Assembly (NCBI GenBank): GCA_016124335.1
Contig: WGNX01000005.1
Coordinates: 248,001 to 312,000, forward strand
DNA: 64,000 nt
Direction of reading: 5' to 3'
Source of the DNA: Alphaproteobacteria bacterium
GTDB taxonomy: Bacteria > Pseudomonadota > Alphaproteobacteria > CACIAM-22H2
Below, piece after piece: positions 8,246-26,776 of this stretch. Both the position numbers and the translations under genes were made by a program. The first letter of the stretch is position 1. The number at the start of each line of letters is the position of its first letter. Below the pieces are notes generated by a model that saw only the letters and a program-made list of their open reading frames with translations, had not been told where the DNA came from and did no database searches.

Positions 8246-9556
8246 ATGGCGCGCACGACCACGAAGGCGACGAACGCCATGGGCGAATCGGGCGACGGCG
8301 ACGAGTTGAAGGCGGCCATCGAAGCGATCGGCGTACGCGCTCGGACGGCGGCTCGTCTGCTCGCGGCGGCGCCCGCCAAGCGCAAGAGTGCCGCATTGCG
8401 CGCCGCCGCCGACCGTGTGCGCGCGGCAACCCAGGAACTGCTCGACGCAAATGCCGCCGATGTCGCGTTCGCCGTCGATGTCGGAAATTCGGCCGCGATG
8501 GTCGACCGTACGCGTCTCGATCCCAAGCGCATCGATGCGATAGCGCGGGGGCTCGAGGATGTCGCAGCACTGCCCGATCCCGTGGGATCGATCCTGCAGG
8601 GTTGGACCCGGCCGAACGGCCTGCTGATCAGCCGCGTGGCGGTGCCGATCGGCGTCATCGGCATCATCTACGAGGCACGGCCAAACGTGACGGCGGATGC
8701 GGGTGCGCTCTGCCTCAAATCCGGCAATGCCGTGATCCTGCGCGGCGGCCAGGAGAGCTTCCTTTCCTCGCAAGTGATCGTCGGCGCGATGCGCGCGGCG
8801 CTTCTCGCCCACGATCTGCCGGAAGACGCGATCCAGCTGATCCCCACGCGAGAGCGCGCCGCGGTTGGCCATCTGCTCGCCATGCACCAGCATGTCGACA
8901 CGATCGTGCCGCGCGGCGGGCGGTCGTTGATCGAGCGCGTGATGAAGGAAACGCGGATTCCCGTCATCGCGCATCTCGAGGGCCTCTGCCACACCTACAT
9001 CCACGAGTCCGCCGACATCGAAATGGCGCGAAAGGTGACGATGAACGCGAAAATGCGTCGCGTTTCGGTGTGCGGTGCCACGGAGACGCTGCTCGTCGAC
9101 CGTGCGGCAGCACCGACGCATCTTCCGGCAATCCTCGACGATCTTTTTGCCGCCGGATGCGAAATCCGGGGCGATGCCGACGTGCAGAAATTCGACCGGC
9201 GGGTCGTTCCGGCCGTCGACGCGGACTGGACGACCGAGTATCTCGATGCGATCCTTGCCGTGAAAGTCGTCGACGGGATCGAAGCGGCGATCGAACACGT
9301 CAATACGTTTGGTTCGCATCACACCGACGCGATCGTCGCAGGCGATTCGGCCGCGGCTGAGGCGTTCCTGGCCCGCGTCGATTCGGCGATCGTGCTTCAC
9401 AATGCCTCGACGCAATACGCCGACGGGGCCGAGTTCGGGTTCGGCGCGGAGATCGGCATCTCGACCGGCCGCCTGCCGCCGCGCGGACCCGTCGGTGCCG
9501 AACAGCTGACGACGTACAAGTACGTCATCCGCGGCCACGGACAGACCCGGCCCTGA
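8246..9556 (+). CDS. proA: Glutamate-5-semialdehyde dehydrogenase (gamma-glutamyl phosphate reductase)
   Basis: 436 residues. It reduces gamma-glutamyl phosphate to the semialdehyde with NADPH, the second proline-pathway step. The active-site cysteine lies in HLEGLCHTY. Also seen are YEARPNVTADAGALCLKSGN and the C-terminal STGRLPPRGPVGAEQLT. A good Shine-Dalgarno (AGGGGCTAGG) supports the ATG at 8246. It is about 20 residues longer than the E. coli enzyme at the N-terminus. Confidence 0.96.
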   Translation: MARTTTKATNAMGESGDGDELKAAIEAIGVRARTAARLLAAAPAKRKSAALRAAADRVRAATQELLDANAADVAFAVDVGNSAAMVDRTRLDPKRIDAIARGLEDVAALPDPVGSILQGWTRPNGLLISRVAVPIGVIGIIYEARPNVTADAGALCLKSGNAVILRGGQESFLSSQVIVGAMRAALLAHDLPEDAIQLIPTRERAAVGHLLAMHQHVDTIVPRGGRSLIERVMKETRIPVIAHLEGLCHTYIHESADIEMARKVTMNAKMRRVSVCGATETLLVDRAAAPTHLPAILDDLFAAGCEIRGDADVQKFDRRVVPAVDADWTTEYLDAILAVKVVDGIEAAIEHVNTFGSHHTDAIVAGDSAAAEAFLARVDSAIVLHNASTQYADGAEFGFGAEIGISTGRLPPRGPVGAEQLTTYKYVIRGHGQTRP

Positions 9557-9558
9557 TC

Positions 9559-10221
9559 TTGCGCCCGCCTGCGCCAACGGCACCGATATCGCGCCTCGGC
9601 TTCGTGCCCAAGCGGCGTGTGGGCCTGTTTGGCGGATCGTTCAATCCGGCGCATGACGGGCATGAACATGTCGCGCGCGAAGCATTGCGGCGGCTCGCGC
9701 TCGACGAAATCTGGCTGCTTGTCAGCCCGCAGAACCCCCTGAAGCCGGAAGCCGGCATGGCGCCCTTCAAGGCACGCATGGCGAGTGCGGTTGCGCTTTG
9801 TGCCGGCAACCCGCGTCTTCGGGTCGTGGCGCTTGAAGAATGGTTGGGGACCCGCTTTACCGCCGATACGCTCGCGGCCTGTCGCCGCCGGTTTCCGCGG
9901 ACCGACTTTGTCTGGATCATGGGGGCCGACAACCTCGCCCAGATCCATCGCTGGGAGCGGTGGAAATCGATCTTTCACAAGATCGTCATTGCCGTGTTCG
10001 CACGACCGGCGTACTCTACCAAAGCATTGGCCGGAAAGGCGGCGCGGGCGTTTTCCACAGCCCGGGTCGGTCCCAGACGGGTCCGACGCCTGGCAACGCA
10101 AACGCCGCCGGCATGGACGTTTTTTCACGTCCGGCTCAATCCGGCTTCTGCGACGCGCATCCGGGCCGTCCGCAGCGATTGGGCCGAAGGCGCGCCTTTA
10201 AAGTCGAGTTCGCAAGGTTAA
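9559..10221 (+). CDS. nadD: Nicotinate-nucleotide adenylyltransferase
   Basis: 220 residues from a TTG codon two bases after proA. It forms nicotinate adenine dinucleotide in NAD synthesis. It has GLFGGSFNPAHDGHEHVA with the H-x-G-H nucleotidyl-transferase motif, WIMGADNLAQIHRWERW, and SATRIR in place of the usual ISSTxIR. The real start could be slightly further in (GFVPKRRVGLF). The position between proA and rsfS is the conserved alphaproteobacterial order. Confidence 0.93.
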   Translation: MRPPAPTAPISRLGFVPKRRVGLFGGSFNPAHDGHEHVAREALRRLALDEIWLLVSPQNPLKPEAGMAPFKARMASAVALCAGNPRLRVVALEEWLGTRFTADTLAACRRRFPRTDFVWIMGADNLAQIHRWERWKSIFHKIVIAVFARPAYSTKALAGKAARAFSTARVGPRRVRRLATQTPPAWTFFHVRLNPASATRIRAVRSDWAEGAPLKSSSQG

Positions 10222-10250
10222 CCGAAGCACGCAACAGCGGGAGACACGCG

Positions 10251-10628
10251 ATCGCAACGACAAAGCGCAAGACCGTATCCGCGCCAAAGACGGTCCTGAA
10301 ACTCGTCGAAAAGACTCTCGACGACGACAAGGCAACCGACCCGGTCGTGATCGACCTGGCCGGCAAGAGCGCGATGGCCGACTACATGGTCGTCGCAAGC
10401 GGCCTTTCCAGCCGCCATATCCAGTCGATGGCCCAGCACGTTGTCGAAAAGCTGGAAGCCAAGGGCCTGAAGAGCATCCGGATCGAGGGTGCCGATCAAG
10501 GGGACTGGGTGCTTATCGACGGTGGCGACATCGTCATCCACCTGTTCAGACCCGAAATTCGTGCCCACTACGGCCTCGAGAAGATGTGGGCCGACAGTTG
10601 GGACGAACCGGTGGCGGCGCAGGCCTGA
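10251..10628 (+). CDS. rsfS: Ribosomal silencing factor RsfS, probable non-AUG start
   Basis: About 125 residues. RsfS binds L14 and blocks 50S-30S joining in starvation. The body is clear: LKLVEKTLDDDKATDPVVID, KSAMADYMVVASG, SSRHIQSMAQ, GDWVLIDGGDIVIHLF and YGLEKMW. No ATG, GTG or TTG exists in frame between the nadD stop and the conserved start of the domain. An ATC at 10251 sits six bases after GGGAGA and gives the expected length. CTG in KTVLKLVEK is a second candidate. The first in-frame ATG would remove most of the first 40 residues. Confidence 0.88.
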   Translation: MATTKRKTVSAPKTVLKLVEKTLDDDKATDPVVIDLAGKSAMADYMVVASGLSSRHIQSMAQHVVEKLEAKGLKSIRIEGADQGDWVLIDGGDIVIHLFRPEIRAHYGLEKMWADSWDEPVAAQA

Positions 10629-10666
10629 CGGAAGGCGGCGCCCGGTCATCGGGCGCCGGAGAGCGG

Positions 10667-11140
10667 ATGCGGATTATCGTGGTCGCGGCGGGGCGCGCGC
10701 GCGGCACGCCTGAAGATGCGCTGTTCGCCGAGTATGCCAAGCGCCTGAAGCCCTCGCCGGGAGGGATCGGCCCGCTCGAGTGTCGGGAAATCGAATCGAA
10801 AGCCAAGGTACCTTCGGCCCGTAAGGCCGATGAGGGCGAACGCCTTCTTGCCCAGATGCCGGATGGCGGATTTCTCGTGGCGCTCGATCCGCGCGGCAAG
10901 GCCCTCTCGACCGAAGATTTCTCGCGGCAATTGGCACGTTGGCGGGACGAATCCATCGGCACCGTCACATTCGCAATTGGCGGCGCGGACGGGCTCGATG
11001 GGGCGGTTCTGGATGCCGCGCGATTCCGGCTTTGCCTCGGTTCGATGACGTGGCCGCACCTGCTTGCGCGCGCAATGCTGGCTGAACAGATCTGGCGCGC
11101 GGCGTCGATTCTTGCCGGCCACCCCTACCATCGAGCGTAG
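10667..11140 (+). CDS. rlmH: 23S rRNA (pseudouridine1915-N3)-methyltransferase
   Basis: 157 residues, a standard-length SPOUT methyltransferase of the RlmH family. The ATG at 10667 begins MRIIVVAAGRARGTPED. Family features are FLVALDPRGKALSTEDF, FAIGGADGLD (the SAM-binding knot) and the end LRAMLAEQ-like LARAMLAEQIWRA with HPYHRA. It methylates the universally conserved pseudouridine in helix 69. It closes the rplU-rlmH housekeeping block. Confidence 0.94.
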   Translation: MRIIVVAAGRARGTPEDALFAEYAKRLKPSPGGIGPLECREIESKAKVPSARKADEGERLLAQMPDGGFLVALDPRGKALSTEDFSRQLARWRDESIGTVTFAIGGADGLDGAVLDAARFRLCLGSMTWPHLLARAMLAEQIWRAASILAGHPYHRA

Positions 11141-11238: not shown

Positions 11239-12222
11239 ATGGCCGCGACGAAAGCCGCTACCGCCAAACGCCCAAGCCGATCCGGCGCCGACGCCGGGCG
11301 AATCTACGGCGCGCTGCGCCGGATACGGCGCGCGGAAGAAGAAATTGCGCGAATCTATCCGACGGACAAGATCAAGAGCCCGGTCCACCTGTCGATCGGG
11401 CAGGAAGCGATCGCCGTCGGCGTTTGCGACCCGCTCGAGCCGCGCGATGCGGTGTCCGGCACGTATCGTGGTCACGCGACCTATCTCGCCAAAGGTGGTT
11501 CGTTGCCGGCGATGATGGCCGAGCTGTTCGGCAAGGACACCGGCTGCGCGCGCGGCAAGGGCGGGTCGATGCATCTCATCGACATGAAAGCGAACGTGTT
11601 GGGCACGTCCGCCGTCGTCGGCACGACGGTGCCTGTCGCGGTCGGTTTCGCGATGGCGCAGAAGATGCTGGGTACGGGGGCGGTCGTCGCCTGTTTCATG
11701 GGGGACGGCGCGACCGAGGAAGGCTGCTTCCCGGAGAGCCTGAACTTCGCGGCACTCCATAAGCTTCCCGTGATCTTCGTTTGCGAGAATAACGGTTTTG
11801 CGATTCACGAACCGATCGCCAAGCGTCAGGCGACGGACAGGCTTTGCGCGCGCGTAGCCACATATGGGATTCCGACGAAGCGCTTTGTCGATTCCGACAC
11901 GCGTGCCATCCGTTCGCATGTTGCTGCGGCCTTGCCGAAGATGCGCAAGGGCGGCGGCCCGATCTTCATCGAATGCATGACCTGGCGCTGGCGCGAGCAT
12001 GTCGGGCCGGGCGAGGACTATGACGCCGGCTTCCGCAGCATTTCGACGCTGAAGAAGTGGCAGAAGAAGGACCCGGTCGAAATCGCGGCAAAGGCGCTCA
12101 CCAGAGCGGCGCGCGCGGAAATCGACGCCGCCGTCGAGGCGGAAATCGCCGCCGCGGTGAGGTTCGCCGAAGAGTCGCCGTTCCCGCCGGTCGAGGAGCT
12201 TTATACCGATGTCTTCGCCTAA
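11239..12222 (+). CDS. Thiamine-diphosphate-dependent E1-type enzyme, alpha subunit (sugar cluster)
   Basis: 327 residues related to pyruvate/2-oxo-acid dehydrogenase E1 alpha. The ThDP-magnesium motif is GDGATEEG (155-162) to NN (184-185), and YRGHATYLAKGG (77-88) is the usual entry loop. The typical GHSxxDP loop is replaced by WRWREHVGPGEDYD. No lipoyl E2 or E3 gene is nearby, and the next genes make sugar nucleotides. It therefore probably decarboxylates a 2-oxo acid and donates the two-carbon unit to a sugar rather than feeding the TCA cycle. E1-like AviB1/AviB2 in avilamycin biosynthesis are a known precedent. The start of the beta gene overlaps it by 14 bases. Confidence 0.8.
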   Translation: MAATKAATAKRPSRSGADAGRIYGALRRIRRAEEEIARIYPTDKIKSPVHLSIGQEAIAVGVCDPLEPRDAVSGTYRGHATYLAKGGSLPAMMAELFGKDTGCARGKGGSMHLIDMKANVLGTSAVVGTTVPVAVGFAMAQKMLGTGAVVACFMGDGATEEGCFPESLNFAALHKLPVIFVCENNGFAIHEPIAKRQATDRLCARVATYGIPTKRFVDSDTRAIRSHVAAALPKMRKGGGPIFIECMTWRWREHVGPGEDYDAGFRSISTLKKWQKKDPVEIAAKALTRAARAEIDAAVEAEIAAAVRFAEESPFPPVEELYTDVFA

Positions 12223-13303
12223 CCTCGTCTGGCCGGGCCGCGCCGAGGAAGGCCGGCGCGTGTTGCGCTATGTCGACGCGCTGTCGGAATCCGTCGCGCT
12301 GGAGATGGCGCGCGATCCCAAGGTGTTCCTGTTCGGGCTCGACGTCGACGATCACAAGTCGATCCAGGGCTCGACCCGTGGCCTGCTCGAGAAATTCGGG
12401 GCGGGCCGGGTTTTCACGACGCCCCTCTCGGAAGACGCGATGACGGGCGTGGCGATCGGCGCGGCGATGGCCGGCATGCGCCCGATCCATGTGCATATCC
12501 GCATGGATTTCCTGATGCTGTGCATGAACCAGCTCGTCAATATCGCGGCCAAGGCCCGCTACATGTACGGCGGGCAGGTCAAGGTACCGCTGGTCGTGCG
12601 CACGATCATCGGAAAATCATGGGGGCAGGGCGCGCAGCACAGCCAGGGCCTCCATTCGATGTTCATGCATGTGCCTGGCCTGAAGGTCTGCGCGCCGTCG
12701 AACGCGCACGATGCGAAAGGGGCGCTTGCCGCGGCAATCCGCGACGACAATCCGGTCGTCTTCGTCGAACACCGCCTGCTCTACGCGACCGAGGCTTTCG
12801 TCGCCGAAGGTGCCTATGTCGTGCCGCCGGGCCGCTCGCGCGTGTGCCGCTGGGGCCGCGACGTCACGGTCGTCGGTATTTCCAACATGGTCGTCGAGGC
12901 TCTTCGCGCGGCCGAGCTTCTCAAGGAAGTGGGCGTCTCGGCCGAGGTCATCGATCCGATCTGGCTAGCCCCGCTCGACAGCGACACGATCATCGACAGC
13001 GTTCGCCGGACGCGCAAGCTCCTGATCGTCGACAATGGCTGGAACATGTGCGGTGCCGGAGCCGAGATCGCGGCGCGCGTTGCCGAAGCGTGCGCGGCCG
13101 ATGGACCGGTCGCGATCCGTCGCATGGGATTTGCGCCCACACCGTGCCCGCCTTCACCGATTCTCGAAAATGCCTTCTACCCGAATCCGGCGACGATCGC
13201 TGCGGAAGCATTTGCGCTCGCGCGCCCGGGTACGGCGCCGTGGGCACCGGATCCGTCGAGCGCAAAGCTCGCCTACCAGATGCAGTTCAAGGGCCCGTTC
13301 TGA
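12209..13303 (+). CDS. Thiamine-diphosphate-dependent E1-type enzyme, beta subunit (sugar cluster)
   Basis: 364 residues, the partner of the preceding alpha subunit. It shows TPLSEDAMTGVAIGAAMAG with the ThDP-activating glutamate (E75), and AQHSQGLHSMF with the E1 beta catalytic-site histidine (H144). PGLKVCAPSNAHDAKGAL and VVFVEHRLLY are also family segments. The C-terminal transketolase domain follows (about 200-330). The alpha/beta overlap points to a stoichiometric heterotetramer. It is immediately followed by the ColD-like dehydratase, whose start codon meets its stop, so the three are one translational unit. Confidence 0.8.
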   Translation: MSSPNLVWPGRAEEGRRVLRYVDALSESVALEMARDPKVFLFGLDVDDHKSIQGSTRGLLEKFGAGRVFTTPLSEDAMTGVAIGAAMAGMRPIHVHIRMDFLMLCMNQLVNIAAKARYMYGGQVKVPLVVRTIIGKSWGQGAQHSQGLHSMFMHVPGLKVCAPSNAHDAKGALAAAIRDDNPVVFVEHRLLYATEAFVAEGAYVVPPGRSRVCRWGRDVTVVGISNMVVEALRAAELLKEVGVSAEVIDPIWLAPLDSDTIIDSVRRTRKLLIVDNGWNMCGAGAEIAARVAEACAADGPVAIRRMGFAPTPCPPSPILENAFYPNPATIAAEAFALARPGTAPWAPDPSSAKLAYQMQFKGPF

Positions 13304-14478
13304 TGTTTTATGAGCTTGCCGCCCCGTCCTGGGGCCAGGAAGAAATCGACGCGCTGCAGGCGGTCATCGCATCGGGTCGCTTCACGATGGGCGAGCGGGT
13401 CGCCGCGATGGAGGCTGCCTTCGCGGCCTACCACGGCAAGAAGCACGGCGTGATGGTGAATTCCGGTTCGTCCGCGAACCTGATTTCGATTGCGGCGCTC
13501 GCCTATCACTCATCTCGGCCGCTTGCGCGCGGCGACGAAGTGATCGTGCCCGCGATCTCGTGGAGCACGACCTATCATCCGCTTCAGCAATACGGGCTGC
13601 GTTGCAGGTTCGTCGATGTCGATCTCGATACGCTCAACATGGATGTCGCAAAGCTCGAGCAGGCGCTGACGCCGAAGACGAAGGCGCTCCTTGCCGTCTC
13701 GATCCTCGGAAATCCGGCGCGTCTGGACGAAATGCGGGCCTTCTGCGACCGGCACGGATTGTGGTTCATCGAGGACAACTGCGAATCGATGGACGCGGAA
13801 CTGCCGTCGGGGCGCAAGGCCGGTACGCTCGGCGATCTCAACACGTTCAGTTTCTTTTTCTCGCACCACATCTCGACGATGGAAGGCGGGATGGTGCTGA
13901 CCGACGATCTCGAGCTTTTTCATCTGCTGAAATGCATGCGCGCTCATGGCTGGACGCGCGACATCCCTTCCGATTCGCCGCTCTACAAGCGCACTTCAAG
14001 TGACCATTTCGAAGCGTACCGCTTCCTATTCCCCGGCTACAACGTGCGGCCGCTGGAAATGGAGGCTGCCGTCGGTCTCGAGCAGCTCAAGAAATTGCCG
14101 GCAATGACGGCGGCCCGACGCAAGAATCTCGCGCTGTTCCAGAAGCTGTTTGCGGGTGACGAGAATTTCCTGATCCAGAAAGAACACGGGAAGAGCTCGT
14201 CATTCTGCTTCACGATGATTCTCAACCCGAAAAAAGCACTGGATCGCGAAAAGATCTTCGCGGCGCTCAAGAAGGCCGACATCGGCTTCCGGATCATCAC
14301 CGGCGGCTGCTTCCTGCGCCACGATACGATCAAGTATTACGACTACGATGTCGTCGGGAACGGTGTCCCGAATGCCGAACTCGCGCATGATCGCGGCTTC
14401 TTCGTAGGAAACCATCCGCACGACCTGACGGCGCAGATTGAAAAACTGCGCAGCGTACTCGACGAAGCGTTACGCTAA
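13303..14478 (+). CDS. ColD/RfbH-like PLP-dependent NDP-4-keto-6-deoxysugar 3-dehydratase
   Basis: 391 residues, DegT/DnrJ/EryC1 fold. The PLP lysine is replaced by histidine: SFFFSHHISTMEGG has H188 where the ordinary DegT enzyme in this window (24329-25456) has SFYATKNVTCGEGG with K178. From memory, E. coli ColD also uses His188 to remove the C3 hydroxyl of GDP-4-keto-6-deoxymannose. The four clustered iron-sulfur cysteines of RfbH/E1 are not evident, so ColD chemistry is favoured. The ATG begins at the last base of the E1 beta stop. It probably supplies a 4-keto-3,6-dideoxy sugar to the E1 pair. The nucleotide (GDP or CDP) is uncertain. Confidence 0.8.
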   Translation: MFYELAAPSWGQEEIDALQAVIASGRFTMGERVAAMEAAFAAYHGKKHGVMVNSGSSANLISIAALAYHSSRPLARGDEVIVPAISWSTTYHPLQQYGLRCRFVDVDLDTLNMDVAKLEQALTPKTKALLAVSILGNPARLDEMRAFCDRHGLWFIEDNCESMDAELPSGRKAGTLGDLNTFSFFFSHHISTMEGGMVLTDDLELFHLLKCMRAHGWTRDIPSDSPLYKRTSSDHFEAYRFLFPGYNVRPLEMEAAVGLEQLKKLPAMTAARRKNLALFQKLFAGDENFLIQKEHGKSSSFCFTMILNPKKALDREKIFAALKKADIGFRIITGGCFLRHDTIKYYDYDVVGNGVPNAELAHDRGFFVGNHPHDLTAQIEKLRSVLDEALR

Positions 14479-14482
14479 GCGC

Positions 14483-15523
14483 CTAGTCGGAAAGATCGGG
14501 CTCGTATACGACGATCCGGCTGCCGTCGGCGGCGGCCTTGACGTCGACCTCGGTCAGGTCTTTGAGCCGTTCGCGGATCGCCTGCTGTTTCTCCGGTGGT
14601 GCCACAAAGGCGACGAAGCCGCCGCCGCCGGCCCCCAGAAGCTTTCCGCCGACGGCCCCTGCCTCCATTCCCGCCTCGTAGATCTGGTCGATCACCGAAG
14701 TCGAGACGCCCTCGGCAAGTTCCTTCTTGAGCCGCCATGCGTCGTGCATGAGTGCGCCAAGCTCGATCATCGGGCGCGCCGGGCTTGCGATGATCGCCTC
14801 GGCCTCGTCGACCATCTCCCGCATGCGGTGAAGGTTCTTCTCCTTGGCGCCCATATTGGCGATCTGCTTGCTTGCGACCGTCAGGGCGAATCTCGACAGG
14901 CCTGTGAAGAACAGCATCAGATTGCCTTCGAGTTCCTCACGCCGTGCGCGGGTCAGGATCAGCGGCTTGACCGAAAACGTGCCGTCGGTTCGGAAATCGA
15001 TGCGGTTGAGGCCGCCGAATGCCGCCCAGACCTGGTCCTGGCTGCCGACTGGCTCGCGGATGACGTGCTGCTCGATTCGGATCGCCTCCTCGGCGAGCTT
15101 CTGCTTCGAGATCATCTGGCCGCGAAGCGCATAAAGCGCATTGAGAAGACCGACCGTGAACGCCGAAGACGAGCCAAGGCCCGAGCGAGCGGGAAGGTCG
15201 CCGTCGTGGTGAATCTCTAGGCCGCGTCGTTCCTTCTGGTCCAGAAGCACGGCACGAACCGCCGGATGCTCGATTTCGAGAAGGTCATTCACCAGTTCGA
15301 TCCGCGACCAGACGACGCGGTATCGGTGCTCGAAGAATGGTGGAAGCCGGCGCAGCGAGATATTGCAGTATTTGTCGATGGCCATGCCGATGACGGCGCC
15401 ACCATGTTGCAGATACCATTTCGGATAATCGGTTCCGCCGCCGAAGAACGACAGGCGATATGGGGTGCGGGAAATGATCACGGTGCCGCTTTCTCCCTCA
15501 CAGGCGCGAATCGAGACGATCAA
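14483..15523 (-). CDS. GHMP kinase, D-glycero-D-manno-heptose 7-phosphate kinase-like (HddA)
   Basis: 346 residues. The N-terminal part SRTPYRLSFFGGGTDYPKWY is characteristic of the HddA/dehydrogenase-linked GHMP kinases. The ATP motif is ARSGLGSSSAF and the third motif GGKLLGAGGGGF. HddA phosphorylates heptose 7-phosphate at C1 on the way to GDP-D-glycero-alpha-D-manno-heptose. The other enzymes of that route (GmhA, GmhB, HddC) are not in the window. It is convergent with the ColD-like gene (4 bases apart) and divergent from the SDR gene at 15600. Confidence 0.8.
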   Translation of the reverse strand: MIVSIRACEGESGTVIISRTPYRLSFFGGGTDYPKWYLQHGGAVIGMAIDKYCNISLRRLPPFFEHRYRVVWSRIELVNDLLEIEHPAVRAVLLDQKERRGLEIHHDGDLPARSGLGSSSAFTVGLLNALYALRGQMISKQKLAEEAIRIEQHVIREPVGSQDQVWAAFGGLNRIDFRTDGTFSVKPLILTRARREELEGNLMLFFTGLSRFALTVASKQIANMGAKEKNLHRMREMVDEAEAIIASPARPMIELGALMHDAWRLKKELAEGVSTSVIDQIYEAGMEAGAVGGKLLGAGGGGFVAFVAPPEKQQAIRERLKDLTEVDVKAAADGSRIVVYEPDLSD

Positions 15524-15599: not shown

Positions 15600-16544
15600 A
15601 TGGCTGCAAAGACGCGCATTCTGATGACCGGTGGCGCCGGCTATCTGGGTTCGACGATGACCCCGGCCCTGCTCGACGCCGGCTATGCCGTTACTGTGTT
15701 GGATAACTTCATGTTCCGTCAGATGACGCTCGCGCATGTCTGCGTGCATCCGGATTTCGACATCGTTCGCGGCGATGCGCGCGATGAATCGGTCCTGAAG
15801 CCGCTTGTGGCAAAAGCCGATGTCGTGATCCCGCTCGCGGCTCTCGTCGGCGCCCCCCTTTGCAATGCCGACAAGATCGGTGCCGAGACGATCAACCGCG
15901 AAGCCGTGGTCACGGTCCTGAAGATGCTCTCGAAGGACCAGCGCGTGCTGATGCCCGTGACGAATTCCGGCTACGGCGTGGGCGAGAAGGGCAAGGAGTG
16001 CACCGAAGAGACGCCGTTGCGGCCGATCTCGCTCTACGGGCGCACGAAAGTCGAAGCCGAAGAAGCGGTACTGTCGCGCGGAAATTCCATTTCATTCCGC
16101 CTCGCGACGGTTTTCGGCATGAGCCCGCGCATGCGGATCGACCTGCTCGTCAACGATTTCGTCCATCGTGCCGTCACCGATCGTGCCGTCGTTCTGTTCG
16201 AGCCGCATTTCAAGCGCAACTACGTCCACGTCCGCGACGTGGCGAACGCGTTCCTGCATGGACTTTCGAAATTCGAATCGATGAAGGACCGGCCCTACAA
16301 CGTAGGTCTTTCGGACGCGAATCTGTCGAAGTTCGAGCTTTGCGAGCGGATCGCCAAGCACGTGCCGGGCTTCGTGTTCATGGAGGCGCCGATCGGCGAG
16401 GATCCGGACAAGCGGGACTACATCGTCTCGAATGCGCGCATCGAGGCGACCGGGTTCAAGCCGAAGCACTCGCTCGACTCCGGGATCGCGGAACTGATCA
16501 AGGGATTCCGGATGATCCGGAATTCGGTCTACGGAAACGTATGA
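15600..16544 (+). CDS. NAD-dependent epimerase/dehydratase or reductase (extended SDR), sugar nucleotide
   Basis: 314 residues from the ATG at 15600; upstream in-frame codons look non-coding. The Rossmann motif is TGGAGYLGS and the catalytic pair is YGRTK (Y-x3-K), preceded by NSGYG. The segment KRNYVHVRDVANAFLHGL is typical of NDP-sugar SDRs. It is shorter than a 4,6-dehydratase and lacks the S-T-DEVFG signature found in RfbB here. An epimerase or reductase is therefore likelier, for instance of a 4-keto or side-chain ketone. Its stop overlaps the rfbC start in an ATGA. Confidence 0.75.
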   Translation: MAAKTRILMTGGAGYLGSTMTPALLDAGYAVTVLDNFMFRQMTLAHVCVHPDFDIVRGDARDESVLKPLVAKADVVIPLAALVGAPLCNADKIGAETINREAVVTVLKMLSKDQRVLMPVTNSGYGVGEKGKECTEETPLRPISLYGRTKVEAEEAVLSRGNSISFRLATVFGMSPRMRIDLLVNDFVHRAVTDRAVVLFEPHFKRNYVHVRDVANAFLHGLSKFESMKDRPYNVGLSDANLSKFELCERIAKHVPGFVFMEAPIGEDPDKRDYIVSNARIEATGFKPKHSLDSGIAELIKGFRMIRNSVYGNV

Positions 16545-17083
16545 ACGTCGTCGACCTGCCGCTTCCGGGGCTCAAGCTGATCGAGCCGAAAGTCTTTGGC
16601 GACGCGCGCGGCCAATTTCTTGAAACCTGGAATGCCGAACGCTATGCGGCGGCAGGCATTCCAGGCCCGTTCATTCAAGACAACCTCTCGCGATCCCGTC
16701 GCAATACGATGCGCGGCCTGCACTGGCAAAATCCGAATGCGCAAGGAAAGCTCGTTTCGGTTGTCGCCGGCACCGTATGGGATGCGGTCGTCGACATAAG
16801 GCGGGCAAGCCCCACTTTCGGGAAATGGTACGGAGTGGAATTGACCGCCGAGAATCGCCGGCAACTCTGGGTGCCGGCCGGGTTTGCGCATGGGTTCGCC
16901 GTCTTGAGCGATTTCGCCGATTTCGCCTACAAGGTGACCGGACCGTACAGTCCGAAGGACGAGCATGTATTGCGTTGGGACGACCCTGCGATCGGCATCG
17001 ACTGGAAGATCGATCGGGCGGACGCGATATTGTCGCCGCGCGATGCGTCGGCGCCGGGATTTTCCGAAATCGCAGCCGTGTAG
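16541..17083 (+). CDS. rfbC: dTDP-4-dehydrorhamnose 3,5-epimerase
   Basis: 180 residues, normal for RfbC/RmlC. The cupin has the catalytic histidine in MRGLHWQ (H61), VVDIRRASPTFGKW, and the C-terminal FAYKVTGPYSPKDE tyrosine region. It converts dTDP-4-keto-6-deoxyglucose to the L-lyxo form. The ATG overlaps the stop of the SDR gene. It is the first of four contiguous rhamnose genes, in order C-A-B-D. Confidence 0.95.
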   Translation: MNVVDLPLPGLKLIEPKVFGDARGQFLETWNAERYAAAGIPGPFIQDNLSRSRRNTMRGLHWQNPNAQGKLVSVVAGTVWDAVVDIRRASPTFGKWYGVELTAENRRQLWVPAGFAHGFAVLSDFADFAYKVTGPYSPKDEHVLRWDDPAIGIDWKIDRADAILSPRDASAPGFSEIAAV

Positions 17084-17116: not shown

Positions 17117-17998
17117 ATGAGCGAGAGATTGGGCATTGTTCTGGCCGGCGGCGCAGGTACGCGACTGCACCCGGCTACTCTTGCGACATCCAAGCAGCTC
17201 CTGCCCGTCTACGACAAGCCGATGGTCTATTACCCGCTGACCACGCTGATGTTGGCGGGAATCCGGCGAATTCTGCTGATTTCGACGCCGGTCGACCTTC
17301 CCGGCTTCCGTCGGCTTCTCGGCGACGGTCGTGGCTGGGGCATTGAAATTACGTATGCCGAACAGCCGAAACCGGACGGAATCGCTCAGTCGCTTGTCAT
17401 TGCCGAGCGGTTTCTCGAGGGCCGCCCGAGCGCGCTGATACTTGGCGACAATCTGTTCCATGGCGAAGGGCTGTCGCGTCGCCTCCAGGCCGCCAGCGTC
17501 GCATCAGGTCCAGGCGCAACCGTGTTTGCCTATACGGTTTCCGACCCGGAACGTTACGGCGTGCTCGAAATCGGTGCGGACGGTCGACCGACGGCGATCA
17601 TCGAGAAGCCGACGGCGCCACGTTCAGACCTTGCGGTGACCGGTCTCTATTTTTACGACTCCGATGCACCGCGCCGTGCGCGGACGCTCAAGCCCAGCGC
17701 GCGCGGCGAACTGGAAATCACCGATCTCAATCGCACCTACCTTGCCGACGGGACGCTGAAGGTGGAAACACTGCGGCGCGGCAACGCGTGGCTCGATACC
17801 GGCACGCAGGACTCGCTCCTTGATGCGTCGAACTTCATAGCCGCAGTTGAACGCCGCCAGGGTCTGAAAATCGGCTGCCCGGAGGAAGTGGCGTGGCGTC
17901 AGGGGTGGATCGACGATGCGGCGCTTGCAAGGCTTGCCGAACCGCTTCGGAAGAGCGGTTATGGCGAATATCTCCTGCGACTGGTCGGCAGGCGCTAG
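17117..17998 (+). CDS. rfbA: Glucose-1-phosphate thymidylyltransferase
   Basis: 293 residues. It activates glucose 1-phosphate with dTTP. The nucleotide-binding start is GIVLAGGAGTRLHPAT and TSKQLLPVYDKPMVYYPL follows. LILGDNLFHGEGL holds the metal-binding aspartate, and NAWLDTGTQDSLLDASNF is the usual C-terminal segment. It lies 33 bases after rfbC and 3 bases before rfbB. Confidence 0.96.
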   Translation: MSERLGIVLAGGAGTRLHPATLATSKQLLPVYDKPMVYYPLTTLMLAGIRRILLISTPVDLPGFRRLLGDGRGWGIEITYAEQPKPDGIAQSLVIAERFLEGRPSALILGDNLFHGEGLSRRLQAASVASGPGATVFAYTVSDPERYGVLEIGADGRPTAIIEKPTAPRSDLAVTGLYFYDSDAPRRARTLKPSARGELEITDLNRTYLADGTLKVETLRRGNAWLDTGTQDSLLDASNFIAAVERRQGLKIGCPEEVAWRQGWIDDAALARLAEPLRKSGYGEYLLRLVGRR

Positions 17999-18001
17999 AC
18001 C

Positions 18002-19060
18002 GTGCGCACGATCCTCGTCACCGGTGGCTGTGGATTTATCGGCTCGGCCTTCGTGCGGCGTGTCGTCGGCGGAAATCTTGCGCGGATTGTCAATGTCGAC
18101 AAGCTGACCTATGCCGCCAATCCGGATGCGGTTGCCGGTGTGGCCTCCCGGCCCGGGTACGCGTTTGTCCAAGCCGATATCGGCGATCGTGCTGCGATGC
18201 GTGACATATTCGCGACCCATCGGCCGGATGCGATCGTCAATTTCGCCGCCGAAACACATGTCGACCGTTCGATCGACGGGCCGCTTGCTTTCGTCGAGAC
18301 GAACGTCGCCGCGACGGTGCGGCTCCTCGTCGAGACGCTCGACTTCTGGCGCAGCCTTCCGGAGGGCGCCCGCGCCGGCTTCCGCTTTCTGCATGTTTCG
18401 ACGGACGAAGTGTTCGGTGCCTTGGGCACGGACGACCCGCCATTCATCGAGTCGACGCCCTATGCGCCGAACTCGCCCTATGCAGCGACGAAGGCGGCAT
18501 CCGATCATCTCGTCCGCGCGTGGATGCACACATACGGCCTGCCGGCAATCGTCACGAACTGCTCGAACAACTATGGTCCGTGGCAGTTTCCCGAAAAGCT
18601 CATTCCGCTGATGATCGCACGAGCCACGGCCGGCGAGCGGCTTCCCGTATACGGCGCAGGAACGAACATCCGCGACTGGCTGCATGTTGACGATCATGCG
18701 GCGGGGCTCTGGCTCGCCCTCACGCGCGGCCGGCCGGGCGAGACATATGCGTTTGGCGGCGGAGCCGAGCGGCCGAACCTCGATGTCGTTCATTTGATTT
18801 GCGACCGGCTCGATGCGCGGCTTGGCGAGCTTTCAGGCAGCCCGCGCCGCGCACTCGTCGAATTCGTCGTCGATCGGCCCGGCCACGACTTTCGCTATGC
18901 CATCGACGCGACGAAGGCACGCACGGAGCTTGCGTGGACGCCGGCGCACGACTTCGAAGATGGTCTATCCGGAACGATAGATTGGTATCTTGACCACAGC
19001 GACTGGGTTGAAGCGATCCGTCGTCGGCGCTATGCGCTGGGGCGTCTCGGGACGGGTTAG
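18002..19060 (+). CDS. rfbB: dTDP-glucose 4,6-dehydratase
   Basis: 352 residues from a GTG start. It makes dTDP-4-keto-6-deoxyglucose with bound NAD. The motifs are TGGCGFIGS (NAD), STDEVFGALG (catalytic Asp-Glu), YAATKAASDH (Y-x3-K) and NCSNNYGPWQFPEKLIPL. It is full length and follows rfbA directly. Confidence 0.96.
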   Translation: MRTILVTGGCGFIGSAFVRRVVGGNLARIVNVDKLTYAANPDAVAGVASRPGYAFVQADIGDRAAMRDIFATHRPDAIVNFAAETHVDRSIDGPLAFVETNVAATVRLLVETLDFWRSLPEGARAGFRFLHVSTDEVFGALGTDDPPFIESTPYAPNSPYAATKAASDHLVRAWMHTYGLPAIVTNCSNNYGPWQFPEKLIPLMIARATAGERLPVYGAGTNIRDWLHVDDHAAGLWLALTRGRPGETYAFGGGAERPNLDVVHLICDRLDARLGELSGSPRRALVEFVVDRPGHDFRYAIDATKARTELAWTPAHDFEDGLSGTIDWYLDHSDWVEAIRRRRYALGRLGTG

Positions 19061-19068
19061 GCCGCTCG

Positions 19069-19956
19069 ATGCCGCTTGCTCTCGTATTTGGGGCGTCCGG
19101 CCAGATCGGGCGCGCGCTCTTGGAAGCAGCCCCGGCCGCCGGATGGCGTGTTCGTGCGCTTGCGCGTTCCGACGTCGATATTTTCGACGTCGGTGCCGTC
19201 GCGGCGGCGACGGCGGCGAATTCACCCGACGCGATCGTCAATGCCGCCGCCTATACCGCTGTCGATCGCGCGGAAACCGACGAGGCGCAGGCCATGCGCG
19301 TCAACGCAGAAGCTCCGGGGACGTTTGCCGCAGCCGCTGCGGCCGCAGAAATTCCATTCGTGCATCTGTCGACCGACTATGTCTTCGATGGCACGTCGCG
19401 CGTTCCGTACAAGGAAGCCGATCCCGTTGCACCGCTGAATGTCTATGGGCGGACGAAGCGTGCGGGCGAGATCGCTGCCTACCGGGCCGGCGGACGCTGC
19501 GTGATCCTTCGGACCTCCTGGGTTTTCGCGCCTTGGGGAAACAATTTCGTGCGGACGGTTCTGCGTCTGGCAAGAGAGCGGCCCGAATTGCGTATCGTCG
19601 ACGACCAGCGCGGCGCACCGACCGGTGCGGAGGATATCGCGAAGACGATTTTCAGAATTCTCGATCGGCTGTCGGGCGCGGATGTCGGCAACCGGACCGG
19701 TCTGTTCCACTATCAGGGACGGCCACCGACGACTTGGGCGGACTTTGCCGAAGCCGCGCTGGACGAAGCGGCGGCATTTGGTCATCCGCGGCCGAAACTT
19801 GTCCGGATCCCGACATCCGAATACCCGACACCGGCCAAACGCCCCGCGAACGGAATCTTGGATTGCGCACGCATAGCCCGAGACTTCGACGTCACGCCGC
19901 CGGATTGGCGTCCGGCACTGGCTCGCGCGGTACGCGGATTGCTCGAATCGCTCTAG
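19069..19956 (+). CDS. rfbD: dTDP-4-dehydrorhamnose reductase
   Basis: 295 residues. It performs the last step to dTDP-L-rhamnose, reducing the 4-keto group. It has GASGQIGRAL, VNAAAYTAVDRAE, STDYVFDG and VYGRTKRAGE (Y-x3-K). Its TAG shares the palindrome CTAG (19953-19956) with the stop codon of the convergent capD-like gene, so the two genes overlap by four bases. Confidence 0.95.
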   Translation: MPLALVFGASGQIGRALLEAAPAAGWRVRALARSDVDIFDVGAVAAATAANSPDAIVNAAAYTAVDRAETDEAQAMRVNAEAPGTFAAAAAAAEIPFVHLSTDYVFDGTSRVPYKEADPVAPLNVYGRTKRAGEIAAYRAGGRCVILRTSWVFAPWGNNFVRTVLRLARERPELRIVDDQRGAPTGAEDIAKTIFRILDRLSGADVGNRTGLFHYQGRPPTTWADFAEAALDEAAAFGHPRPKLVRIPTSEYPTPAKRPANGILDCARIARDFDVTPPDWRPALARAVRGLLESL

Positions 19957-23314: not shown

Positions 23315-24319
23315 ATGCGAACTCGTAAATTCGGCCGTTCAGGCTTCGTGGTCTCCGAAATTGGTTTCGGAACGTGGGGCATCGGCGGTTTCATTGCCGG
23401 CGCGTCCTATGGCGCGACCGACGACGGCGTTTCGCGGGCGGCATTGCATCGCGCCTTTGAACTCGGCGTCACGTTCTTTGACACTGCCGATTCTTACGGC
23501 GACGGGCGCGCCGAAATGCTGCTCGGGGAATGCTTCGGGGCCGGGTCGGCGATCGACCCGACGGCCGTCGTGATCGCGACGAAAGCCGGCCATCCGCGCT
23601 TCGGGGGGCCACAGGATTTCGAGCCTGCCCATCTGGTGGAGTCGCTCGAGGGCTCGCTGCGTCGTCTCCGGCGCGAGCGGGTCGAACTCCTCCAGCTCCA
23701 CAATCCGACAATGGATCTCCTCCGTGCGCGGCCGGAGATACTTGGCGCACTTGAAGATCTGAAGCGGACCGGAAAGATCGCCGCTTGGGGCCTTTCAATG
23801 AAGACCCCGGACGAAGCGGCCGATGCGATCCGCGCCTTCGCGCCGGCAAGCGTGCAAGCCAACTTCAATCTCGCCGACCAGCGTGCGCTTGAAAACGGCC
23901 TGCTTGATCTCGCGAAATCGAGCGGCACGGCTCTGATTGCGCGCACGCCGCTGGCATTCGGATTCCTGTCAGGACGGCTTTCGGCCGATGTCGAGTTCCC
24001 CGAGGGCGATCATCGCCGGAACTGGTCGAAGGAGCGAATAGCCCAATGGGCGCGCGCAAGCCGGACGCTTGCCGGCGACATCGCCGAGCGCGATGGCCAA
24101 AGCCTTGCCCAGATCGCCTTGCGTTTCTGCCTCACCCACCCCGGAATCTCGACGACCATTCCCGGCATGATGAGGCCCGACGAAGTCGATGAAAATGCGG
24201 CCGCCTCCGATTTTGGCCCGCTCACGAGCGATGATTTTGCGCGAATTCGCGCACTTTATGCCGGCAGCGAATTTGCGGCGGCACCCGTCGTCACGCCCAA
24301 GTCACCGATCCGGAAGTAA
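23315..24319 (+). CDS. Aldo/keto reductase
   Basis: 334 residues of the AKR fold. The start MRTRKFGRSGFVVSEIGFGTWGIGG and the catalytic aspartate/tyrosine region FFDTADSYGDGRAE are typical. VIATKAGH supplies the lysine, and SVQANFNLADQRAL and LTHPGISTTIPGMM form the cofactor end. NADPH-linked reduction of a carbonyl is expected. The substrate is unknown; in this setting a keto-sugar or sugar aldehyde is possible. A Shine-Dalgarno-like GGGAT adjoins the ATG. Confidence 0.88.
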   Translation: MRTRKFGRSGFVVSEIGFGTWGIGGFIAGASYGATDDGVSRAALHRAFELGVTFFDTADSYGDGRAEMLLGECFGAGSAIDPTAVVIATKAGHPRFGGPQDFEPAHLVESLEGSLRRLRRERVELLQLHNPTMDLLRARPEILGALEDLKRTGKIAAWGLSMKTPDEAADAIRAFAPASVQANFNLADQRALENGLLDLAKSSGTALIARTPLAFGFLSGRLSADVEFPEGDHRRNWSKERIAQWARASRTLAGDIAERDGQSLAQIALRFCLTHPGISTTIPGMMRPDEVDENAAASDFGPLTSDDFARIRALYAGSEFAAAPVVTPKSPIRK

Positions 24320-25978: not shown

Positions 25979-26776
25979 ATGATGGGCGCTGACGAAATGG
26001 AAGCGGTAATTCTCGCCGGCGGCATGGGAACGCGCCTGCGTGAGGAAACCGGAATACGTCCCAAGCCGATGATCGAGATCGGCGGAGTCCCGATCCTCAT
26101 TCACATCATGCGGCTGTATCGCCATTTCGGCGTGCGGCGATTCGTCGTCTGCCTTGGCTATAAAGGCGACGTCATCCGCGACTACTTCATCAATTATCGG
26201 CTGCACAATGCCGATCTGGAAGTGGACCTGTCGACGAATGCGGTGCGCGTCCTTGGCGACGTGGCACCGCTCGACTGGACCGTCACTCTCGTGGAAACCG
26301 GCGCGGACGCGCAGACCGGCAGCCGCATCCGCCGCGCGCTGCGCCATGTCCGCGGTCAGGCGTTTTTCGCGACTTATGGCGATGGCGTTGCCAATGTCGA
26401 CATGTCGGCATTGCTTGAAACGCACATGCGTTCGGGGCGGCTCGGCACGGTAACCGCGGTCCACCCGCCCTCGCGCTTCGGCGAGATCGATATCGACGGT
26501 GGAGAAGTGCGGACGTTCCGCGAAAAGCCACAGATTGGCGAAGGCTGGATCAACGGCGGCTTCATGGTGATCGACAAGCGCGCGATCGAGCCGATCGCGC
26601 CCGACGATCCGGCGAACAGCCTGGAGGTTGACGTGCTTCCGCGTCTTGCCCATGAAGGCCAACTCGCGGTTCATCGCCATGGCGGCTTCTGGCAGTGCAT
26701 GGACACATATCGCGACATGACGCTGCTCAACGAGATGTGGGCGGACGGAAAGGCGCCTTGGAAGATCTGGAAATGA
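25979..26776 (+). CDS. rfbF: Glucose-1-phosphate cytidylyltransferase
   Basis: 265 residues. The start EAVILAGGMGTRLREETG and RPKPMIEIGGVPILIHIM are the nucleotidyl-transferase motifs. The end HGGFWQCMDTYRDMTLLNEMW is the distinctive C-terminus of RfbF/AscA-type CDP-glucose synthases. CDP-glucose is the entry to 3,6-dideoxyhexoses. The next enzyme, CDP-glucose 4,6-dehydratase (RfbG), is absent from the window. Its TGA overlaps the next gene in an ATGA. Confidence 0.88.
   Translation: MMGADEMEAVILAGGMGTRLREETGIRPKPMIEIGGVPILIHIMRLYRHFGVRRFVVCLGYKGDVIRDYFINYRLHNADLEVDLSTNAVRVLGDVAPLDWTVTLVETGADAQTGSRIRRALRHVRGQAFFATYGDGVANVDMSALLETHMRSGRLGTVTAVHPPSRFGEIDIDGGEVRTFREKPQIGEGWINGGFMVIDKRAIEPIAPDDPANSLEVDVLPRLAHEGQLAVHRHGGFWQCMDTYRDMTLLNEMWADGKAPWKIWK

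Follow-up and report, generated by a model that had tools for sequence, protein, structure and literature searches.

What does a two-subunit E1 enzyme do when its genes are joined to that of a sugar 3-dehydratase? This question is raised by a 64,000-nucleotide stretch of an Alphaproteobacteria bacterium genome (assembly GCA_016124335.1, contig WGNX01000005.1, positions 248,001 to 312,000; hereafter the window), in which overlapping genes code for the alpha and beta subunits of a thiamine diphosphate (ThDP)-dependent E1 and for a ColD-type dehydratase. The source genome is 2.9 Mb in size and 74.6% complete. The idea that the E1 pair is a carboligase is well supported by the gene context. Concerning the whole pathway, we see about an even chance that GDP-heptose is oxidised at C4, deoxygenated at C3 and acetylated at C4 from pyruvate, the product being a nine-carbon sugar nucleotide, 3-deoxy and branched at C4, that would probably go into a surface polysaccharide.

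The genes of the module are tightly packed: E1 alpha and E1 beta overlap by 14 nt, and the ATG of the dehydratase overlaps the end of E1 beta by 1 nt. Pfam recognises a two-subunit E1 with ThDP-binding domains, as expected of an E1-type sugar carboligase; also as expected of such an enzyme, the pair lies among nucleotide-sugar genes with no adjoining gene for the acyltransferase component E2. E1 alpha stays below both NCBIfam cut-offs for pyruvate dehydrogenase (PDH) E1 alpha (289.7 of 393.85 and 190.8 of 411.35 bits). It carries EHVGPGED and lacks the GH-type loop before Asp-Pro that is a feature of dehydrogenases. The closest solved chain to E1 beta is 1ni4_B (1.1e-64), and the S-E and A-Q-H-S-Q stretches, presumably the site of the catalytic Glu and His in human E1 beta, are preserved, which fits ordinary ThDP activation.

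To place the pair among its relatives, a scan of genome contigs was used, from which the best 80 of 557 relatives were taken. The clade set of 45 loci consists of L006-L047 and three Azospirillum plasmid loci, and the control set of 38 loci is L048-L085. Since the 45 loci were picked by E1 alpha rank, plus the three plasmid loci, counts of their neighbours describe the group rather than test it. Several of these loci are the same DNA as genomes of the genus set (G), which means that the two sets cannot be counted as independent. For comparison with the PDH class, 30 E1 alphas were taken, one per genome.

An IQ-TREE analysis of 102 E1 alphas, with 10 of the 30 PDH-class sequences among them and none from AviB, Pau or KbDH, puts the window E1 alpha inside a clade of 44 (support 100/99), whose labels span ten phyla, though many members are metagenome-assembled genomes (MAGs) and single phylum labels may be wrong. 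The wider side of the tree holds 54 rows (50 chosen, 2 Streptomyces, 2 control) versus 48 on the other side (38 control, 10 PDH), with a split support of 100/100. An [E/Q/D]H[V/C]G loop was found by alignment in 45/45 E1 alphas of the clade set, versus 0/37 controls (one of the 38 did not align at the loop) and 0/30 PDH-class sequences, all 30 of which have a GHSMSDP loop. E2 homologues are encoded in the stretch compared in 0/45 clade loci and 29/38 control loci (Fisher p 8e-15, the rows not being independent). The only match to the E2 family PF00198 in the incomplete source genome adjoins the 2-oxoglutarate dehydrogenase (OGDH) genes on contig C15. Nine out of ten genus relatives possess a PDH-class E1 alpha (1e-97 or better) in addition to the window-type enzyme. 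On the tree, the loop, the E2 counts and this coexistence we reject a housekeeping PDH or acetoin E1, and the EHVGP-type loop genuinely sets this E1 group apart. The lost E2 and the changed loop fit an acceptor other than lipoamide.

Some E1 pairs near or beyond the edge of the group are worth recording. The Pelagibacteraceae E1 alpha at L052 9001-9936, which sits on a long branch among the carboligase-side rows of the tree, has the loop AHCGQGED. Two Streptomyces plasmids encode pairs with an EHVGPG loop (L088 11884-13958 and L089 14920-16966), the latter adjoining condensation-domain, SARP and ScbR-type genes. L148 and L165, from the genus relatives G008 and G002, contain a second, more distant E1 pair near short-chain dehydrogenase/reductase (SDR) and GmhA- or GmhB-like genes, and L090 (Azospirillum oryzae) a more distant pair with SIS and PfkB genes.

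The third gene of the module encodes a member of the pyridoxal phosphate/pyridoxamine phosphate (PLP/PMP) enzymes with the sequence features of ColD. Its residue 188, the first His of an SHH stretch, aligns with the first SHH His of ColD (2gms, chain index 190), which we take to be H188 of the ColD papers. This His replaces the Lys, the Asp is preserved, and ColD is the closest solved structure (1e-114, versus 1.9e-46 for the CDP enzyme 3bcx). An RfbH-type dehydratase is ruled out, as the RfbH model scores 258.4 of 423 bits and C-x-C-x7-C, the Fe-S cysteine motif of the RfbH/DDH type, is absent.

A His-type ColD-family gene is located in 34/45 clade loci, and in 29 of these no more than 1.7 kb separates it from the end of E1 beta; no ColD-family match was found in the 38 controls. 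Lys-type copies in L010 and L090 accompany a His-type copy. The dehydratase is present in 11/11 genus genomes at 89-100% identity, suggesting that the module is more than a chance arrangement, and in the eight genus relatives whose module was compared a window-type E1 alpha (78-91%) stands beside it. Coupling of the E1 pair to a ColD-type 3-dehydratase is thus supported at the level of sequence. The first-pass annotation had described the overlapping genes with His188 (here confirmed by open reading frames (ORFs), Pfam and the SHH alignment), the missing E2 and the altered loop, all of which hold; it had also named grouping with housekeeping dehydrogenases as one outcome that would overturn it, and the E1 pair came out separate.

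The proposed route would begin with oxidation of GDP-heptose at C4 by the SDR. The C3 hydroxyl would be removed by the His188 dehydratase, whose PMP would come from glutamate. E1 alpha/beta would then decarboxylate pyruvate on ThDP and pass the two carbons to the C4 ketone rather than to lipoamide, giving a 4-C-acetyl branch on a tertiary alcohol, which a reductase may convert to hydroxyethyl. Both the acceptor of the E1 pair, namely the 4-ketone that the dehydratase would leave, and its donor, pyruvate, are inferred. Each step has chemical precedent; what is new is that they are combined. Campylobacter enzymes have been used in vitro to oxidise GDP-heptose at C4 and dehydrate it at C3 (PMC10680097), transfer of acyl groups to ketones by an E1-type enzyme was described in vitro for KbDH (PMC12247030), and pau11 is reported to be needed for paulomycin synthesis (PMC4425429).

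The choice of heptose comes from the next two genes. The kinase gene ends four bases past the dehydratase on the opposite strand, and the SDR gene starts divergently from it. The closest solved chains to the kinase are the sugar kinase 4usm/4usk and the heptose phosphate kinases 3k85 and 4n3o. HddA is its best NCBIfam model, yet the score is below the cut-off (124.5 of 600 bits), so we call it HddA-like and not HddA. The SDR is similar over its full length to 6vo6 (54.5% identity over 308 residues, gap-free), whose PDB title is putative sugar-nucleotide epimerase/dehydratase and which we take to be Cj1427, the Campylobacter GDP-heptose C4-dehydrogenase, an enzyme type that works with alpha-ketoglutarate. 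Since the kinase and the SDR point to GDP-heptose, with the 4-ketone formed while O6 is kept, the predicted product is a 3-deoxy C4-branched heptose and not a 3,6-dideoxy sugar. The 3,6-dideoxy hexose of the first-pass annotation was demoted from first choice for the same reason: of its E1-catalysed branching after 3-dehydration, the non-dehydrogenase E1 coupled to a 3-dehydratase stands (by tree, loop, E2 and neighbours), whereas the dideoxy sugar lacks such support. The sugar-nucleotide genes that it placed downstream could be identified as the kinase, the SDR and an Rml set.

Genes of the window discussed in the text, with the matches that support their assignment
Feature	Coordinates	Strand	Details
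E1 alpha subunit, ThDP-dependent, predicted ketone carboligase	11239..12222	+	327 aa; PF00676 (E1_dh) 1.6e-59
E1 beta subunit	12209..13303	+	364 aa; PF02779 (Transket_pyr) 1.2e-35, PF02780 (Transketolase_C)
ColD-type PLP/PMP 3-dehydratase, His188 for Lys	13303..14478	+	391 aa; DegT_DnrJ_EryC1 3.8e-81
GHMP sugar kinase, HddA-like	14483..15481	-	start GTG 15481 chosen; ORF extends to 15523
SDR, predicted GDP-heptose C4-dehydrogenase	15600..16544	+	PDB 6vo6 1.3e-113
RmlC, dTDP-rhamnose pathway, probably separate sugar	16541..17083	+	TIGR01221 228.1 bits, cut-off 155.75
RmlA	17117..17998	+	TIGR01207 443.3 bits, cut-off 360.65
RmlB	18002..19060	+	TIGR01181 438.2 bits, cut-off 365.1
RmlD	19069..19956	+	TIGR01214 296.8 bits, cut-off 224.05
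Aldo/keto reductase	23315..24319	+	PF00248 6.6e-59
Glucose-1-phosphate cytidylyltransferase, bears only on the CDP alternative	25979..26776	+	TIGR02623 328.8 bits, cut-off 300.25

Neighbours were counted in the 45 clade loci with queries from L013, L017, L021, L024 and L026, first for any match and then at a minimum of 40% identity; some any-identity matches are distant kin of other function, and the counts drop at the stricter level. ColD-like genes (34 loci, 23 at the stricter level), HddA-like kinases (31 and 31) and 6vo6-like SDRs (26 and 22) are the most frequent; next in number come HddC-like (23 and 9), GMD-like (20 and 14) and Fcl-like genes (18 and 10), while GMD itself, the GDP-mannose 4,6-dehydratase, was matched in 3 loci (1 at the stricter level). 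None of the ten queried families (ColD, HddA-like, SDR, HddC-like, GMD-like, GMD, Fcl-like, B12 radical SAM, GmhA, GmhB) was matched in the 38 controls. A close SDR (22 loci) and a close GMD or GMD-like 4,6-dehydratase (15 loci) co-occur only in L024; nine loci, some on short contigs, have neither. Such near-exclusion is expected of two alternative routes to the 4-ketone. The GMD-like protein of L024 scores 194.6 bits with the GDP-hexulose reductase, 190.9 with the GDP-heptose 4,6-dehydratase and 145.1 with the GMD model.

A B12-binding radical SAM protein (PF02310, PF04055), absent from the window, is encoded in 14/45 loci (L013, L019-L023, L025-L027, L031, L032, L038-L040), 12 at the stricter level, and could possibly C-methylate the same sugar.

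Within the genus, the SDR is found in 11/11 genomes and the kinase in 9/9 searched. Among 23 genomes the SDR occurs in 12, the same 12 that carry the dehydratase, which is the pattern of linked genes. GmhB matches are present in 11/11 genus genomes (5 above cut-off), HddC-model matches in 11/11 and GmhA matches in 10/11 (none above cut-off for either). The source genome has GmhA, GmhB and guanylyltransferase-like matches on contigs C15, C10 and C9, respectively; the transferase on C9 is 50% identical to that of L021, whose closest solved structure, 6jq8, was deposited as a 6-deoxy-D-mannoheptose pathway protein. In G013, radical SAM, HddC-like, HddA-like, SDR, ColD-like and E1 genes are gathered within about 18 kb, and on the Azospirillum plasmids L086 and L087 an SIS gene, an HAD-IIIA gene with a transferase-like part, SDR, E1 and ColD-like genes form one stretch. 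GMD was considered as a necessary partner and dropped, being above cut-off in only 8/11 genus genomes; its presence says little, because relatives that lack the module often have it too.

A number of observations weigh against the proposal. In the tree, the clade of 44 does not take in L045-L047, L090, L148, L165 or the two pairs from Streptomyces plasmids, although all of these are on its side, and of the 40 control rows L052 and L152 also fall on the carboligase side on long branches, so the chosen group of 50 is not one branch. No PDH-class E1 alpha was found in the 74.6%-complete source genome, most likely because of that incompleteness. Among the 36 loci that leave 3.5 kb of room, four, L043-L046, are without a His-type dehydratase by the criterion used; the homologue in L045 has Asn at the Lys/His position. 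As to the heptose, GmhA was matched near only 10/45 loci (6 at the stricter level) and GmhB near 3/45 (1), and both may serve ADP-heptose. The kinase, GmhA and HddC-type genes are all below curated cut-offs. The best NCBIfam model of the L021 transferase is mannose-1-phosphate guanylyltransferase, ahead of HddC (both below cut-off), and the source-genome transferase scores best with the same model. The remaining contrary observations favour other routes and are taken up with them.

Closest to the first-pass annotation is a hexose route, in which GDP-mannose would pass through GMD, the ColD-type dehydratase and E1 branching to a GDP-linked, yersiniose-like 3,6-dideoxy-4-C-branched octose. ColD itself acts on a hexose and its structure is the nearest to the dehydratase, and both GMD and an Fcl-like gene are present in the source genome. 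In a Legionella sp. MAG (L017), GMD (595.6 bits, above cut-off), Fcl-like and ColD-like genes stand beside the E1 pair with no HddA-like kinase in the 14.6 kb examined, a gene set that makes hexose use somewhere in the clade likely. For the window we regard this route as unlikely, though it is the strongest of the alternatives: GMD is below cut-off in the module carriers G002 and G003 (98% and 97% complete) and G008, and the adjacent HddA-like kinase and 6vo6-like SDR are left unexplained.

The same sugar pathway could also involve a different act of the E1 pair, with another keto-acid donor, position or acceptor. Neither donor nor position is fixed by the sequence, and the same-loop relatives on the two Streptomyces plasmids lie in stretches in which no clear sugar genes were seen (in one case by annotation, in the other by reading of ORFs). 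The E1-type enzymes covered in PMC12247030 branch sugars at C3 or C4, and the branches described there are of two carbons. This speaks against such variants, as does the C4 ketone that the partner enzymes would leave, and we consider them improbable.

Slightly more doubtful still is a CDP route, in which CDP-glucose would be made, 4,6-dehydrated, 3-dehydrated and branched as in yersiniose synthesis, the E1 pair replacing YerE. The window carries a cytidylyltransferase gene 11 kb downstream of the module. Of nine genus genomes searched, eight have RfbG above cut-off. No 4,6-dehydratase gene was read beside the cytidylyltransferase, RfbG being located elsewhere in the genus relatives; RfbG was not found above cut-off in the incomplete source genome, and the dehydratase is of the ColD and not the RfbH type. 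Finally, a PDH or acetoin-type dehydrogenase using an E2 encoded elsewhere would agree with the fold family, the ThDP motif and a sole E2 on another contig of an incomplete genome, but the tree, which separates this group from PDH and acetoin-type E1, together with the loop, the E2 counts and the coexisting PDH-class E1, makes it very improbable.

The GDP-heptose route remains our preferred reading. In the rest of the window, directly ahead of the module (8246-11140) lie an aldehyde-dehydrogenase-family gene (read as proA), a CTP_transf_like gene (read as nadD), RsfS and an SPOUT_MTase gene (read as rlmH). The Rml genes are followed by those of a Polysacc_synt_2 protein, a nucleotide-sugar dehydrogenase, the aldo/keto reductase (AKR), a Lys-type DegT enzyme and the cytidylyltransferase. 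The AKR might, speculatively, reduce the acetyl branch by analogy with Pau7, described as an AKR (PMC4753412).

More broadly, and more tentatively, we suggest a widespread pathway: GDP-heptose would be 4-oxidised (or 4,6-dehydrated), 3-deoxygenated and C4-acetylated by a lipoamide-independent E1 carboligase, so that branched nine-carbon surface sugars would be expected in bacteria whose labels span ten phyla, some of which may add a B12 radical-SAM modification. If true, this would bring together the E1-type ketone branching known from antibiotics and a GDP-heptose toolkit of the Campylobacter type. Many environmental bacteria would then have the pathway, with its genes annotated only as pyruvate dehydrogenase and aminotransferase. 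It would predict a concrete branched nine-carbon sugar, testable with a few purified enzymes, supply candidate E1 biocatalysts that accept ketones and make the EHVGP-type loop a sequence marker separating such E1s from dehydrogenases. No paper on this combination was found in the open-licence full-text literature, which covers few subscription journals; the survey of Krug (2024) may already list Gram-negative E1 clusters.

Several known systems resemble parts of the module. The yersiniose pathway likewise deoxygenates a 4-keto sugar at C3 and then adds a two-carbon branch from pyruvate at C4; however, it works on a CDP-hexose, its RfbH-type dehydratase is an Fe-S enzyme, and YerE, a ThDP flavoprotein with a single chain, belongs to another superfamily. 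With ColD, the dehydratase that serves colitose synthesis, the window enzyme shares about 50% identity over the first three alignment blocks, the His at the Lys position and the lack of C-x-C-x7-C. In contrast to ColD, the window dehydratase is translationally coupled to E1 genes, and its neighbours in the window are a kinase and an SDR instead of a ColC-type reductase.

AviB1/B2, Pau11/Pau12 and KbDH-alpha/beta are E1-type (alpha-KADH2) sugar branchers of antibiotics (PMC12247030, PMC4753412, PMC4425429). We liken the window E1 pair to them by description and not by sequence; unlike them, it belongs to a GDP-sugar module with a ColD-type 3-dehydratase and to mostly Gram-negative lineages.

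The GDP-heptose toolkit of C. jejuni (HddA, HddC, Cj1427 and the HS:5 C3-dehydratase) shares with the window the 6vo6-like SDR, the HddA-like kinase and the C3-dehydratase. Cj1427 and the HS:5 dehydratase were reported to yield GDP-4-keto-3-deoxy-heptose in vitro (PMC10680097), and such C3-dehydratases share 62-67% identity with their counterparts in E. coli O55:H7 and Y. pseudotuberculosis IVA (PMC10440746). In C. jejuni the 4-ketone is then reduced, whereas in the window the place of the C4-reductase is occupied by the E1 pair.

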